Shown here in pieces: positions 12,977 through 30,743 of a stretch of DNA of 39,170 bases; the first letter of the stretch is position 1, and each line of letters begins with the position of its first letter. The DNA is from Xanthobacteraceae bacterium (GTDB taxonomy: Bacteria; Pseudomonadota; Alphaproteobacteria; Rhizobiales; Xanthobacteraceae). The stretch covers positions 1 to 39,170 of the forward strand of contig SHVN01000014.1 of assembly GCA_009694215.1 (NCBI GenBank). Direction: 5' to 3'. The position numbers and the translations under genes were made by a program. The notes beneath the pieces were generated by a model. It was not told where the DNA came from. It saw only the letters and a list, made by a program, of their open reading frames with translations, and ran no database searches.

Positions 12977-13963
12977 ATGATGGACAACACGCATCTGACG
13001 CCGATCGAAGTGGGCCTAACCGCGGCCATTGTCGCCGTGGAGGCGGAAGAGCCGCGCATCCTGGTCGCCGCCGACCGCAGGAGCGCCACCCGCGCCGGCC
13101 TTCCGTTCGGGCCGTTCGATCCGCTGTCGCACCGCACCTTCGAGATTGGCCTGCGCAACTGGGTGGCGGCGCAGACCGCGATCAAAGTCGGCTACGTCGA
13201 GCAGCTCTATACGTTTGGCGACCGCGGCCGCCACGCCCGGCCCGACGACACCGGCATGCACATGATCTCGGTCGGCTATCTCGCGCTCACCCGCATGTCC
13301 GACAACGCAGCCGCGCTCCGCGAGGCCGAAGCGGGCTTCGAGCCGTGGTACCGCTTCTTTCCCTGGGAGGACTGGCGGAACGGCCGGCCGGGCATCCTCG
13401 ACCAGACCATCGTGCCGCTCTTGGAGCGTTGGGCGAAGACCGGCAAGAGCGGCGAGCCCGCGCGGCCGCTCGGCCGGAGCGAGCGGATCCGGCACTGTTT
13501 CGGCATCGGCGGCTCGCCCTGGGACGAGGAAAAGGTGCTCGACCGCTACGAGCTGCTCTACGAGGCGGGGCTCGTGGAGGAGGCGCGCCGCGACGGCCGC
13601 GAGGGCAACGTGCCGCGCGGAAAGATCGCCCCGCTCGGCGAAGCCATGCGCTTCGACCACCGGCGCATTCTGGCCACCGCCATCGCGCGGCTTCGCGCCA
13701 AATTGAAATACCGCCCGGTGGTGTTCGAACTGATGCCGGACGAATTCACCTTGACCGACCTGCAGCGCACCGTCGAGGCGATCTCCGGGCGGCATCTGCA
13801 CAAGCAGAACTTCCGCAGGCTGGTCGAATCCGCGGCGCTGGTCGAGCCGACCGGCGAGACCTCGACGGCGACCGGCGGGCGGCCGGCGGCGCTGTTCCGC
13901 TTCCGCCGCGACGTGGTGCAGGAGCGCCCGGCGCCGGGGCTGCGGCTCGGCGGGCGGGCGTAA
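12977..13963 (+). CDS. nadQ: NadQ-like NAD biosynthesis regulator (degenerate Nudix plus winged helix)
   Basis: A 328-residue protein resembling the alphaproteobacterial NAD regulator family (COG4111, named NadQ in comparative work). The N-terminal half is Nudix-like: VGYVEQLYTFGDRGRHARPD and MHMISVGYLAL match the strand pattern of NrtR regulators. The catalytic box is missing, however; where REXXEE should be, the sequence reads FEIGLRNWVAAQTAIK (residues 55-70), so hydrolysis is unlikely and ligand sensing is favoured. The C-terminal ~90 residues form a winged helix (FTLTDLQRTVEAISGRHLHK, then NFRRLVESAALVEPT). It sits behind the phosphatase gene. The palindrome before nadA at 19468-19506 is its likely operator. 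ATG 12977 is followed immediately by a second ATG. Confidence 0.82.
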   Translation: MMDNTHLTPIEVGLTAAIVAVEAEEPRILVAADRRSATRAGLPFGPFDPLSHRTFEIGLRNWVAAQTAIKVGYVEQLYTFGDRGRHARPDDTGMHMISVGYLALTRMSDNAAALREAEAGFEPWYRFFPWEDWRNGRPGILDQTIVPLLERWAKTGKSGEPARPLGRSERIRHCFGIGGSPWDEEKVLDRYELLYEAGLVEEARRDGREGNVPRGKIAPLGEAMRFDHRRILATAIARLRAKLKYRPVVFELMPDEFTLTDLQRTVEAISGRHLHKQNFRRLVESAALVEPTGETSTATGGRPAALFRFRRDVVQERPAPGLRLGGRA

Positions 13964-16730: not shown

Positions 16731-17963
16731 TCAGGTGCCGGCGGGCGCCGGCGCCGGTCTTGGCACGGGCTTCTCGACGATCGGCAGATTGATGACCGCC
16801 GATGCGATGCCCAGGATGATCGTGCCCCACCAGATCACGTCATAGGAGCCGCTGGCTTCGAACAGCACGCCACCGAGCCATACGCCGAGGAAGCCGCCGA
16901 CCTGATGGCTGAAGAAAGCAAGGCCCAGCAGCATGGTCAGCCAGCGATTGCCGAACATGATCGCCACCAGCGCCGAGGTCGGCGGGATGGTCGACAGCCA
17001 GAGCAGACCTATGACGCCGCCGAAGATCAGCGTCGCGGCCGGGCTTGGCGGCAGCAGGATGAACGCGAAAATCGCCAGCGAGCGGCCGAAGTAGATCGCC
17101 GACAGCAGGTATCGCTTGGGCATCAAGTTGGCGATGTAGCCCGAGGCGATCGAGCCCACGATGTTGAGCAGGCCGATGACGGCGATGGTCCATCCGCCGA
17201 TCGAGGCCGGCAGACCGCGATCGATCAGATAGGCCGGCAGATGCACGGTGATGAAGAAGAGTTGAAAGCCGCAGGTGAAGTAGCCAAGGATGAGCAGCAC
17301 ATAACTGCGATGCCCGAGCGCCTCGGCCAGCGCCTGCGTCACGGACTGGCCGGGGGGCATGTACGGCGCCGCGCCTGGAGCCCTTCGCGGCGCCGCAAGC
17401 GCGAGCGACATCGGCAGCATCGTTAGCAGCACCGCGCCGAAGATCAGCAGCGTGTTGTGCCAGCCGAACTGGTCGATCAGCACGATCGCCAGCGGCGAGA
17501 ACAGGAACTGCCCGAACGATCCGGCCGCGGTGCCCATGCCGAAGGCCAGCGTGCGCCATTCGTCGGGCAGCAGCTTGGCGAAGGCGCCGAGCACCAGCGC
17601 AAACGAGCAGCCGCCGAGGCCGAGACCGATCATCACCCCCGCCGACAGGTGGAATTCAAGCAGCGTCGTGGCATAGGCCATCCAGACGATGCCGGCGACG
17701 TAGAGCACCGCGCCGCCCATCAGCACCTGGACCGCGCCGAAGCGGTCGGCGAGCGCGCCGGCAAACGGTTGCGCCGCGCCCCACAGCAGCATTTCGATGG
17801 CGAGCGCCAGCGCGAACGCGTCGCGGCCCCAGCCGTTGGCCGTCGTCATTGGCGTCAGGAAAAACCCGAACGTCGAGCGCGGGCCAAAGCTGATCAGGCT
17901 GATCAGGCAGCCGCAGAGCACGATGACGATCGGCGTGCGCCAGGTTGATAAGCGGGCGGGCAT
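16731..17963 (-). CDS. MFS transporter (paralogue of the adjacent upstream MFS gene)
   Basis: A 410-residue, 12-helix major facilitator protein in the inner membrane. It shares long blocks with the next MFS gene: FGPRS near residue 27, FTCGFQLFFITVHLPAYLID, MPKRYLLSAIYFGRSL and FFSHQVGGFLGVWLGG. The pattern resembles oxalate/formate antiporter or monocarboxylate-type MFS members, but the substrate is unknown. ATG 17963 starts nine bases after the stop of the upstream paralogue, so the pair is one operon. The C-terminus ends in the same INLPIVEKPV as its partner, followed by a Pro/Ala-rich tail. Confidence 0.9.
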   Translation of the reverse strand: MPARLSTWRTPIVIVLCGCLISLISFGPRSTFGFFLTPMTTANGWGRDAFALALAIEMLLWGAAQPFAGALADRFGAVQVLMGGAVLYVAGIVWMAYATTLLEFHLSAGVMIGLGLGGCSFALVLGAFAKLLPDEWRTLAFGMGTAAGSFGQFLFSPLAIVLIDQFGWHNTLLIFGAVLLTMLPMSLALAAPRRAPGAAPYMPPGQSVTQALAEALGHRSYVLLILGYFTCGFQLFFITVHLPAYLIDRGLPASIGGWTIAVIGLLNIVGSIASGYIANLMPKRYLLSAIYFGRSLAIFAFILLPPSPAATLIFGGVIGLLWLSTIPPTSALVAIMFGNRWLTMLLGLAFFSHQVGGFLGVWLGGVLFEASGSYDVIWWGTIILGIASAVINLPIVEKPVPRPAPAPAGT

Positions 17964-17972
17964 CTGGGGCGA

Positions 17973-19214
17973 TTATGCGGCAGCGGCCACGGGGCGCGCC
18001 ACCGGCTTCTCGACGATCGGCAGGTTGATGACCGCCGAAGCGACGCCAAAGAACACCGACAGCCACCACACCAGATCGTAGGAGCCGGTGGCCTCGAACG
18101 CGAGCCCGCCGAGCCAGACGCCGAGGAAGCCGCCGACCTGATGGCTAAAGAAGGCGAAGCCGAACAGCATGGTGAGCCAGCGGGTGCCGAACATCAGCGC
18201 CACCAGCCCCGACGTGGGCGGCACGGTCGAGAGCCAGAGCAGGCCGGTGACGGCGCCGAACACCAGCGTCGATGCGGTGCTGGGCGGCAGCGTGATCAGC
18301 GCCACGATCGAGAGCGCGCGGCCGAAGTAGATGATCGACAGCAGGTAGCGCTTGGGCATCCGTCCTGACAGCCAGCCCGAGCCGAGCGAGCCCACGATGT
18401 TGAACAGCCCGATCAACGCGATGGTCCAGGCGCCGGCGTCGGCGCCCATCCCGCGATCGACCAGATAGGACGGCAGGTGAACCGTGACGAAGGCCAGCTG
18501 GAAGCCGCAGGTGAAGAAGCCGATCACCAGCAGCACGTAGCTGCGGTGACCGAAGGCTTCGATTAGCGCGTTCCGCGACGACTGGAGCTGGGGAGCGCCG
18601 GCGGCGCGCGGCGGAGCCGGCGGCGTCGCCAGCACCAGCGACAGCGGCAGCACCAGCAGCAATGTGCCGGCGAACACCAGAAGCGTCGTCTGCCAGGAGA
18701 AGGCCTGGATCAGTCCATGCGCCAACGGCGAGTACAGGAACTGGCCGAACGAGCCGGCGGCGGTGCCGGCGCCGAAGGCAAAGCCGCGCCAGCTTTCCGG
18801 CACGAGCTTGCCGAGCGCGCCGACCACCATCGGAAACGAGCAGCCCGCAAGGCCGAAGCCGATGACGACGCCCGCCGAGACGTCGAGCATCAGCGTCGAG
18901 GTCGCAGTCGCCATCCCGATCAGGCCGATGGCGTAGAGGACCGCGCCGACCGACAGCACGCGCACCGGCCCGAAGCGATCGGCGACGGCTCCGGCGAACG
19001 GCTGCGCCGCGCCCCAGAGCAGGTTCTGCAAGGCTATCGCGAACGAGAAGGTCTCGCGGCCCCAGCCGCGGTCGAACGACATCGGGGTCAGAAACTGGCC
19101 GAGCGCCGAGCGCGGCCCGAAGGCGATGAGCGCGATCGCGCAGCCCACCGCGATCAGCACGACGGGCGTCCGCCACGAGAGCTTAATCGGCGCGGGCGCT
19201 GTCGCTGTGGACAT
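17973..19214 (-). CDS. MFS transporter (first of a tandem pair)
   Basis: A 413-residue, 12-helix MFS protein. ATG 19214 is chosen because GGAGAG lies six bases upstream and homologous N-termini of the pair align there; the open frame continues to 19361 without a plausible start. The signature FGPRSALGQFLTPMSFDRGW and GAVADRFGPVRVL (loop 2-3 motif) are clear. It is closely similar to the following gene across the whole length, which indicates a tandem duplication. It is divergent from nadA across a 310-bp gap. A link to uptake or export of an NAD precursor is possible but is inferred only from position. Confidence 0.9.
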   Translation of the reverse strand: MSTATAPAPIKLSWRTPVVLIAVGCAIALIAFGPRSALGQFLTPMSFDRGWGRETFSFAIALQNLLWGAAQPFAGAVADRFGPVRVLSVGAVLYAIGLIGMATATSTLMLDVSAGVVIGFGLAGCSFPMVVGALGKLVPESWRGFAFGAGTAAGSFGQFLYSPLAHGLIQAFSWQTTLLVFAGTLLLVLPLSLVLATPPAPPRAAGAPQLQSSRNALIEAFGHRSYVLLVIGFFTCGFQLAFVTVHLPSYLVDRGMGADAGAWTIALIGLFNIVGSLGSGWLSGRMPKRYLLSIIYFGRALSIVALITLPPSTASTLVFGAVTGLLWLSTVPPTSGLVALMFGTRWLTMLFGFAFFSHQVGGFLGVWLGGLAFEATGSYDLVWWLSVFFGVASAVINLPIVEKPVARPVAAAA

Positions 19215-19467
19215 ATGGCTCTCCGGAGTGCCGGCGCCGGACCGGCGCAGGATGACCGGAGCGATACTTAGGCTTTCGCGCCCGTCCGCCAAAGCGAAAG
19301 TTCGTGATGTGTTCGATTTCCGCGGCGCATGGCTGCATGACTGGGTCGCAGAGGCGGACAATACGCGGGATGGAGGGGGACTGGCGCGGGGTGGCCCGAA
19401 GTGCTATATGATTTGCTCGAAGTGAGAATAATGGGTCTGGGGATGCCGGCCGCGAGCCGGATGTTTT

Positions 19468-19506
19468 CACCCCCTAATATGCTCATATTGAGTATATTAG
19501 GGGGTG
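19468..19506. promoter_or_regulatory. 39-bp palindrome before nadA, candidate NAD-regulator operator
   Basis: Two perfect 13-bp arms, CACCCCCTAATAT (19468-19480) and ATATTAGGGGGTG (19494-19506), enclose a smaller palindrome CTCA-TAT-TGAG (19482-19492). Only the G/T pair at 19481 and 19493 breaks the symmetry. It ends about six bases before the nadA GGAGGA. The core TATGCTCA-TAT-TGAGTATA looks like a dimer-repressor operator, and NadQ is the obvious candidate binder. The GC arms could also form an RNA hairpin if transcribed. The rest of the 310-bp gap (19215-19524) shows no gene or further clear signal. Confidence 0.75.
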
Positions 19507-19524
19507 CCACTGGAGGAAACTGCA

Positions 19525-20625
19525 ATGCCGGTCTTGGACATTGTCGGCCAGCTGACGGCGCGGCGTCCCGCGCCCCCGCCCGCCGCATCTGGTAATGCGG
19601 CCTTGCGCAAATTCGGCGCCCTGCCCGCGCCGTCGCTCGAATGGAACCCCGAGGTCGAGCGCGATACCGCGCACCTCTATGCGCGCATCCAGAATGTCGT
19701 GCCCTCGGTCGAGTGGCCGTTCTTCGCGCCTTACGTGCGCGCGATCAACGCGCGGAAGAAGGAGCGCAACGCGGTCATCCTGGCGCACAACTACCAGACG
19801 CCGGAGATCTACCATTGCGTCGCCGATTTCGTCGGCGACTCGCTGCAGCTTGCGCGCGAGGCCACCAAGGTCAAAGCCGACGTGATCGTGCAGGCCGGCG
19901 TGCACTTCATGGCCGAAACCGCGAAGATCCTGAACCCTGACAAGACCGCGCTGATCCCCGACGTCCGGGCCGGCTGCTCGCTCGCCTCCTCCATCACCGG
20001 CGAGGACGTGCGGCTGATGCGCGAGCGCTTCCCGGGCGTGCCGGTCGTCACCTATGTCAACACCTCGGCCGAAGTGAAGGCCGAGAGCGACATCACCTGC
20101 ACGTCGTCGAACGCGCTGCAGGTGGTGGAGAGCCTTGGCGTCGATAAGGTGATCTTTGTGCCGGACCAGTACCTGGCAAAATACGTCGCGTCGCAGACCA
20201 AGGTGAAGATCATCGCCTGGAAAGGCTCGTGCGAGGTGCATGAGCGCTTCACCGGCGACGAGCTTTCGCTGATCCGGTCGAACGACCCCTCGGTGCAGAT
20301 CATCGCGCATCCGGAGTGCCCGCCGGACGTGATCGCGGCGTCCGACTTCACCGGCTCGACCGCGCATATGATCGACTGGGTGCGCAAGAACAAGCCCAAG
20401 CGTGTCGTGCTGGTCACCGAATGCTCGATGGCCGACAACGTGGCGGCCGAATTGCCGGACGTGGAGTTCACCCGGCCGTGCAACCTCTGCCCGCACATGA
20501 AACGCATCACGCTGCCGAAAATCCTCGACAGCCTCTTGCACATGAAGGAGAAGGTCGTGGTCGATCCCGCGATCGCCAAACGTGCCCGCCGCGCGGTCGA
20601 GCGCATGATCTACATGAAGTCCTGA
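19525..20625 (+). CDS. nadA: Quinolinate synthase
   Basis: A 366-residue NadA. It condenses iminoaspartate with dihydroxyacetone phosphate to give quinolinate, using a [4Fe-4S] cluster. Expected cluster cysteines are Cys151 (RAGCSLASS), Cys236 (GSCEVHE) and Cys322 (NLCPHMK). Substrate motifs HNYQ (88-91) and the [11 protein letters not shown] segment are present. ATG 19525 has GGAGGA at ideal spacing; the in-frame GTG at 19504 lies inside the palindrome and is rejected. The ~40-residue N-terminal extension is usual for alphaproteobacteria. nadC follows after 15 bp; nadB, often found between them, is absent. Confidence 0.97.
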
Positions 20626-20640
20626 CGGACGGGTGCGACC

Positions 20641-21534
20641 ATGCTGACACGGGCGACGGAAACTCTCACGGAGTCCCTGCTCTACCCCGGCGGCTTCATC
20701 TCGCCGCTGGAGATCGAGGACGCGGTGCATCGTGCGCTGGCCGAGGACCTCGGCCGCGCCGGCGACGTCACCTCGATCGCGACCATTCCACCCGGCACGC
20801 CGAGCCGCACGGTGATGGTGGCGCGCAGGGCCGGCACCATCGCGGGCCTGCCGCTCGCCGCCGCGTGCTTCCGCAAGCTTTCGCCCAGCATCGAGATCGT
20901 GGCCGCGGTGCGCGACGGCGCGACGGTCGAGGCTAGGACCGTGCTGATGCACATCAAAGGCGACGCCCGAGCCGTGCTTTCGGGCGAGCGCGTCGCGCTC
21001 AATTTCGTCCAGCACCTGTCGGGGATCGCAACCGCAACCAACGCCTATGTGCGCAAGGCCGGCGGCAAGACCCGCATCTGCTGCACGCGGAAAACTACGC
21101 CGGGGCTTCGCGCGCTGGAGAAATACGCGGTGCGCTGCGGCGGCGGGTTCAACCACCGCTTCGGGCTCGACGATGCCATCCTGATCAAGGACAACCACAT
21201 CGCGGTCGCGGGCGGCATCCGCGCCGTGCTGGAGCGCGCGAGAGCCGCCGCCGGCCATCCGGTGAAGGTCGAGATCGAGGTCGACTCGCTCGGCCAGCTC
21301 CAGGAGGTGCTCGACTGCGGCCTGGCCGACGTGGTGCTGATCGACAATTTCGATGTGGCATCGATGAAGAAGGCCGTGGCGCTGGTCGCGGGCCGGCTGG
21401 TGATCGAGGCGTCCGGCGGCATCACGCTCGACAGCATCGCGGACATCGCCGCGACCGGCGTGGACTACGCCTCGTCCGGCGCGCTGACGCATTCGGCTCC
21501 GGCGCTGGATGTCGGGCTGGATATCGAAATCTAG
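20641..21534 (+). CDS. nadC: Nicotinate-nucleotide pyrophosphorylase (quinolinate phosphoribosyltransferase)
   Basis: A 297-residue NadC, which converts quinolinate and PRPP to nicotinate mononucleotide, CO2 and pyrophosphate. Characteristic segments are CTRKTTPGLRALEKYAVRCG, GGFNHRFGLDDAILIKDNH, the EIEVDSL acidic site, and EASGGITLDSI in the phosphate-binding loop. Length fits the family. ATG 20641 is 15 bp after the nadA stop, so both are expected in one transcript under the palindrome at 19468-19506. The remaining gap to 21679 (144 bp) contains TATAAT at 21568 and TTGACA at 21607, but no convincing promoter pair. Confidence 0.97.
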   Translation: MLTRATETLTESLLYPGGFISPLEIEDAVHRALAEDLGRAGDVTSIATIPPGTPSRTVMVARRAGTIAGLPLAAACFRKLSPSIEIVAAVRDGATVEARTVLMHIKGDARAVLSGERVALNFVQHLSGIATATNAYVRKAGGKTRICCTRKTTPGLRALEKYAVRCGGGFNHRFGLDDAILIKDNHIAVAGGIRAVLERARAAAGHPVKVEIEVDSLGQLQEVLDCGLADVVLIDNFDVASMKKAVALVAGRLVIEASGGITLDSIADIAATGVDYASSGALTHSAPALDVGLDIEI

Positions 21535-30658: not shown

Positions 30659-30743
30659 CGTCATGGCCGGGCTTGGCCCGGCCATCCACGCCTTATCTTC
30701 TTATGCCAAGGCGTGGATGACCGGCACAAGGCCGGGCATGACG
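30659..30743. repeat. Dispersed palindromic repeat, copy 2 of the CGTCATG family
   Basis: An 85-bp element bounded by CGTCATG and CATGACG, with inner arms around CCGGGC and GCGTGGATG/CATCCACG. Its last 33 bp agree at 29 positions with 12340-12372. It starts three bases after the glyS stop (30747 on the minus strand) and fills most of the glyS-ppdK gap, where it might also act as a terminator. Confidence 0.8.

Follow-up and report, generated by a model that had tools for sequence, protein, structure and literature searches.

The nadA locus and its palindrome

The window, by which we mean the whole stretch of 39,170 nucleotides that was analysed, carries on its plus strand nadA, encoding quinolinate synthase (19525–20625; TIGR00550, PF02445), followed on the same strand by nadC, encoding quinolinate phosphoribosyltransferase (20641–21534; TIGR00078, PF01729/PF02749). 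The ATG start codon of nadA stands at 19525, behind a Shine-Dalgarno motif GGAGG recognizable in the plus-strand sequence at 19512–19516, and an alternative GTG start is present at 19504. The direct succession of nadA and nadC without an intervening nadB is found in this genome and also in L303, L304 and L310. In this genome, which is incomplete, no nadB match reached the family cut-off; an aspartate dehydrogenase domain scored above its own, and an aspartate dehydrogenase may take the place of NadB here. Two adjacent MFS transporter genes on the minus strand (16731–17963 and 17973–19361) are divergent from nadA, and both match lactate and oxalate/formate transporter models below cut-off.

A further plus-strand gene (12977–13963) encodes a protein whose best PDB match is to the structures 7q91–7q94, described as ‘NADQ transcription factor’ (E 7.4e-82, residues 13–324 of 328), and which contains a winged helix of the NrtR type (NrtR_WHD, PF21906). 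By these matches its product is clearly recognizable as a homologue of NadQ, the transcriptional regulator of NAD synthesis. The original prediction had noted a NadQ-like regulator gene in the vicinity, and the gene indeed ends about 5.5 kb from the palindrome described below.

The palindrome, a feature to which no strand is assigned, occupies 19468–19506 and reads CACCCCCTAATATGCTCA-TAT-TGAGTATATTAGGGGGTG, with 18-nt arms around a 3-nt gap. The 13-nt outer parts of the arms are perfect and are followed by one G/T position and a perfect inner CTCA/TGAG pair. At a threshold of at least 17 of 18 complementary arm positions and gaps of 0–8 nt it is unique in the window; the base composition would lead one to expect about 0.001 occurrences. 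It ranks second of 29 inverted repeats in the window, the best 25 of which were inspected; the one ranked above it (30659–30743) is longer and 86% complementary. Apart from the palindrome, no inverted repeat of the window is stronger than this one, whose 36-nt arms lie 13 nt apart. The palindrome is thus confirmed as it was first described, as one of the strongest symmetric sites of the window with two perfect 13-bp arms and an inner CTCA-TAT-TGAG, and its predicted end about six bases before the nadA ribosome-binding site is right to within a base (19506 against 19512).

The palindrome core as a probable NadQ operator

The available text of a 2016 study (PMC5343134) gives the consensus of the NadQ (COG4111) binding site as ttATRCTCannntGAGYATaa. 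The centre of the palindrome, TATGCTCATATTGAGTATA (19478–19496, no strand assigned), which we call O2, agrees with every specified upper-case position of this consensus and matches the search pattern with 0 mismatches; the whole palindrome consists of O2 and the outer arms CACCCCCTAA and TTAGGGGGTG. With up to three mismatches allowed, the pattern has two matches in the window where shuffled sequence would give 0.06: O2 itself and a site with three mismatches at 19412–19430. In the genome to which the window belongs (77% complete) O2 is the sole site with 0 mismatches. Two further sites in the same genome, with two mismatches each, were judged to be chance matches; for one of them, L002, the inspection covered a list of open reading frames.

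How widely is this site kept? We collected the upstream regions of nadA from 257 genomes, read from 104 of 107 family matches, 89 of 140 order matches and 68 of 113 class matches; G001, G004 and G015, in which the match had no 5' end, were left out of the family set. O2 is present with at most two mismatches in 224 of the 257 regions. The 33 regions without it include G048, a 30-base stub, and G172 and G204, whose ends look like coding sequence. The site tracks the regulator gene: 219 of the 233 genomes that carry nadQ have it, as do 5 of the 24 in which nadQ was not found, a set that includes incomplete genomes (Fisher p 1e-15). The palindrome had been expected before nadA in close relatives that keep nadQ, and all six of the same-genus genomes sampled possess both nadQ and a core with 0 mismatches at that place. 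The consensus fit and the six relatives argue strongly for the predicted NAD-regulator operator before nadA, and O2 is almost certainly a NadQ site. The operator reading of the core is well supported and belongs to a type of site that is already known biology.

A second NadQ-like site and a promoter-like element

The weaker match to the NadQ pattern, TTTGCTCGAAGTGAGAATA (19412–19430, plus strand), is designated O1. In one group within the same family, 64 of the 65 leaders examined carry O1 and O2 as a pair, and the O1 consensus there is TTTGCTC....TGAG[AG]ATAA; the site logo omits L021, since the pattern found one site only in it, though a degenerate O1 is visible. Beside O1 lies a promoter-like element, P1 (19381–19409, plus strand), composed of CTGGCG (19381–19386) and CTATAT (19404–19409) with an upstream TG. 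Its assignment as promoter-like rests on conservation: the family form, CTGGCG, a spacer and TG.TATAT ending a few bases before O1, is preserved in the logo of 64 family leaders and in an alignment of seven relatives. A strict sigma-70 consensus scan of 19100–19700 gave 0 promoter matches. Because P1 ends a few bases before O1, the latter is expected to overlap the start site of transcription. NadQ would presumably bind at O1 as well as at O2.

The distance between O1 and O2 ranges from 54 to 259 bp in the leaders of the family group. Among the family leaders used for these distances (L004–L033, L072–L105 and L110), the 37 genus-deduplicated values of at most 150 bp are helically phased, with a best period of 10.4 bp (R 0.60), and 0 of 5000 jittered sets were phased as strongly. 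With one value per genus (24 genera) the mean R is 0.605, and 2 of 3000 sets were as strong. Such phasing would be expected if NadQ bridged the two sites through a DNA loop. Outside the family it is not replicated (31 values, R 0.26 at 10.5 bp, p about 0.13), and we treat looping as a lead only.

A terminator-like hairpin at a nearly constant distance from O2

Between O1 and O2 the terminator scan found a stem-loop, CCGGC-CGCGA-GCCGG (19446–19460, plus strand), which we call T and whose position is conserved. It is followed by a T-rich tail, ATGTTTTC (19461–19468, plus strand), that also appears as a block of T-rich columns across leaders. T ends 17 nt before O2. Judged by the window alone it could be a chance occurrence, the scan giving 1 hit against 0.3 in shuffled sequence, and its weight comes from the comparison across leaders. 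The original prediction missed T at this distance from the core, together with the second NadQ-like site and P1.

Within the family group T is found in 59 of 64 leaders, 16–18 nt before O2 in 58 of these 59. It is this distance that is held and not the remainder of the layout, since T and O2 stay 16–18 nt apart while O1 and O2 are separated by anything from 54 to 259 bp. Across the whole sample a hairpin with a T-run ending 15–19 nt before O2 is present in 138 of the 224 leaders with O2, where dinucleotide shuffles would yield 0.7; the score cut-off for T in the counts quoted here was 22, raised from an initial 20. The distance is 16–18 nt in 133 of 142 detected hairpins, with modes at 17 nt (85 leaders) and 18 nt (38 leaders). 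At least five T occur in the 8 nt after the stem in 114 of the 138 leaders, and four in the other 24. Of the 68 families that have O2, 43 have T in place and 25 do not. T is likewise lacking in 55 of 193 non-compact O2 leaders and in all 31 compact promoters, in which two NadQ sites lie at most 36 bp apart. Examples of the compact form are L225, L231 and L354, and several genomes have nadQ immediately before nadA. Of the 24 genomes in which no nadQ was found, 3 have T in place.

The same anatomy emerges without any hairpin scoring from a column profile of one leader per family (58 leaders), which is mostly GC-rich from –36 to –29 and from –23 to –19 and T-rich from –17 to –12. These 58 leaders also display a short GC-rich block (57–78% GC) that separates the T-run from O2 and spans positions –9 to –5. 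The stems themselves vary, with 33 distinct right arms. The stem-arm comparison used 134 of the T leaders, and in the 53 rows (30 families) with a right arm other than GCCGG, 4.83 of 5 positions pair within a leader, a value that is high by construction as the arms were chosen by a pairing scan, against 2.36 between families.

A scan of named genomes kept 80 loci, many from Pelagibacteraceae; 34 have O2 and 10 of these have T, among them Afipia birgiae and Chelatococcus composti. The loci of Chelativorans and Aminobacter have O2 without T, and among the three named Mesorhizobium loci listed, two are without O2 and one has O2 without T.

Both in the window (19446–19468) and in the 138 leaders T has the anatomy of an intrinsic terminator, a GC-rich stem-loop followed by a T-run, and it very probably acts as one, so that some transcripts would end there. 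The widespread unit of terminator-like hairpin and operator, with its nearly constant spacing, is the unexpected result of this analysis.

A model of repressor-gated attenuation

What could hold a terminator-like hairpin in register with a repressor site? The front edge of RNA polymerase lies about 17–18 bp ahead of its active site. In the model that we favour, transcription would begin at P1, with its start overlapped by the weaker site O1, and O2 would lie within the part of the nadA-nadC leader that is transcribed. NadQ in its DNA-binding form would block initiation at O1, and on O2 the same protein would in addition form a roadblock. The nascent RNA would fold into T, whose base is 17 nt before O2, and completion of the hairpin would bring the front of the polymerase up to the first base of O2. 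Synthesis of the U-tract would then require the polymerase to force its way through the first half-site, and it would be slowed in the very window in which termination takes place, so that more transcripts would end at T; without NadQ it would read through.

The placement of O2 in the leader is probable because the best promoter scores downstream of T are close to those of shuffles (7.29 against 7.28) while those upstream are higher (8.1; 136 of the 138 T leaders). In 41 of the 89 leaders that reach a promoter score of 8 or more out of 12, the start, as estimated from the consensus, lies at most 16 nt before the stem. This leaves little room for an aptamer or a leader peptide, which makes the NadQ site the obvious partner of T. 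One DNA-binding protein would then control both initiation, at O1, and termination, through T and O2, and an attenuator driven in this way by a DNA-bound protein would need no aptamer, leader peptide or RNA-binding protein.

Several considerations weigh against the coupling. At its usual release point the polymerase would already overlap the first half of O2, and a firmly bound NadQ could for this reason stop it before the U-tract was made. In the window T is short and does not belong to the minimum-energy fold of the leader (19410–19530), though folding during transcription may differ. Many O2 leaders are without T, and its absence from non-compact leaders, from whole families and from every compact promoter implies that NadQ control does not need it. 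On balance, we hold the reading of T as a repressor-gated attenuator, with NadQ on O2 coupled to termination, to be a possibility of slightly less than even standing. Its extension to Alphaproteobacteria at large, where nadA leaders would carry a repressor-gated intrinsic terminator with O2 held 17 nt behind the hairpin, is put forward a shade more tentatively still.

Relation to known regulatory systems

Among the closest known systems is the NadQ (COG4111) regulon itself, as represented in the available text of PMC5343134 and in the structures 7q91–7q94: the consensus is the same, nadA is a target and the regulators are homologous. Operators are all that this text describes, and the paper nowhere uses the word terminator, whereas the present leaders combine two sites with a terminator-like hairpin at a fixed distance. 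The available portions of the open-licence literature, including PMC5343134, PMC11109978 and PMC3616915, yielded no terminator before a NadQ operator and no account in which an operator follows a terminator at a fixed distance; the NadQ structure study of Minazzato 2022 could hold relevant data.

Roadblock repression by LacI, PurR, GalR, CcpA and CodY bound downstream of start sites is established, according to the consulted parts of PMC10310618 and PMC4132739. The proposed action of NadQ at O2 would be similar in that a repressor site downstream of the start would hinder an elongating polymerase. It would differ in that the polymerase stalled at those roadblocks is, in the same accounts, released by Mfd or Rho, whereas here a terminator-like hairpin is built in at a near-constant distance. 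A partial parallel is offered by Chlamydia, where trpRBA transcripts end early in a YtgR-dependent manner (PMC6504234). There, too, a DNA-bound intergenic repressor ends upstream transcripts and has been proposed to act as an attenuator, but the excerpted account describes no conserved hairpin with a U-tract at a fixed distance. With the NAD+-I riboswitch (nadA motif), cited in the reference list of PMC11109978, our model shares control of the nadA leader in response to NAD status; it differs in that the leader here has no Rfam match and the RNA that precedes the hairpin is often short.

Intrinsic terminators and roadblocks formed by repressors are commonly regarded as devices of separate kinds. 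A composite of the two with near-fixed spacing, in 43 of 68 sampled operator families, would mean that evolution has coupled them. The unit also offers a natural series of spacers and stems in which the effect of a block ahead of the polymerase on intrinsic termination can be followed. If the model is true, NAD synthesis in a large bacterial class is subject to a second layer of control, beyond the operators to which the consulted NadQ literature is confined.

Alternative explanations and the outer arms of the palindrome

In the most serious competitor of the coupled model, O1 and O2 are NadQ operators of the ordinary sort and T, a leaky terminator without coupling to them, does no more than lower read-through of the leader, with a distance to O2 that is inherited or reflects a limit of packing. 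Repressor sites near start sites suffice for repression, and the 55 non-compact and 31 compact leaders that retain O2 without T are readily accommodated; the constancy of the spacing at 16–18 nt, despite varied stems and widely varying O1–O2 distances, is harder to explain in this way, and we consider the explanation somewhat doubtful, if worth serious attention. A second promoter, P2, could instead be located at O2, with TATRCT as its –10 element and T as an insulator; the 17 nt between T and O2 would then mimic the spacer between –35 and –10 elements, to which it is equal in length, and TATACT does resemble a –10 hexamer. The would-be –35 bases, however, are the variable arm of a hairpin, and between T and the start codon the best promoter scores equal those of shuffles, so that this candidate is unsupported and we regard it as improbable. 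Control might also be exerted at the level of RNA, with T and the O2 hairpin forming a protein target, a processing site or a riboswitch-like switch. The leader of the window does fold better than shuffles (z –3.83). Within the family the flanks of O2 form 249 pairs outside the core against 210 ± 8 in shuffles, and in chimera folding they give a mean z of –0.71 with 51 of 64 leaders negative (genus t –3.1), compared with 0.02 for the O1 control. Beyond the family the chimera test gives a weak signal (t –1.63 in 42 families with T and –1.98 in 31 without), and compensated outer arms are patchy. An Rfam covariance-model search of 19200–19700 returned 0 matches at E values up to 1, which led us to reject an NAD riboswitch; control at the RNA level as a whole has a small probability, similar to that of a second promoter.

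The outer arms bear on a further reading, according to which all 39 bp of the palindrome form a special, extended operator that accommodates a NadQ tetramer or two overlapping dimers, as the original prediction had suggested from the length of the arms. Perfect outer arms of 13 nt are far more than chance would produce in this genome. Yet the palindrome contains no other match to the core; the G-run on its right is absent in all seven aligned relatives, which share three C in the left outer arm, and the extra arm sequence of this genome amounts to CACCCCC/GGGGGTG. Outside the family the pairing of the flanks, followed base by base, is near the rate between families from the fifth base outward. 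With symmetry beyond the core moderate in the family and not clear outside it, the tetramer or overlapping-site proposal is left unsupported and has very little to recommend it; a conserved extended operator was rejected on the grounds that the arms are not general across relatives. The long arms are a local elaboration. The extra RNA-level hairpin that had been proposed alongside fares better in part, being plausible in this genome though not a general feature: the RNA segment 19464–19510 folds at –30.0 kcal/mol against –15.3 for chimeras, and the arms would form a very stable hairpin in the leader RNA. In L217, L198, L168 and L174, which belong to other families, NadQ operators likewise have long outer arms that are complementary to each other but unrelated in sequence to those of the window, and the long arms in these single families apparently evolved separately.
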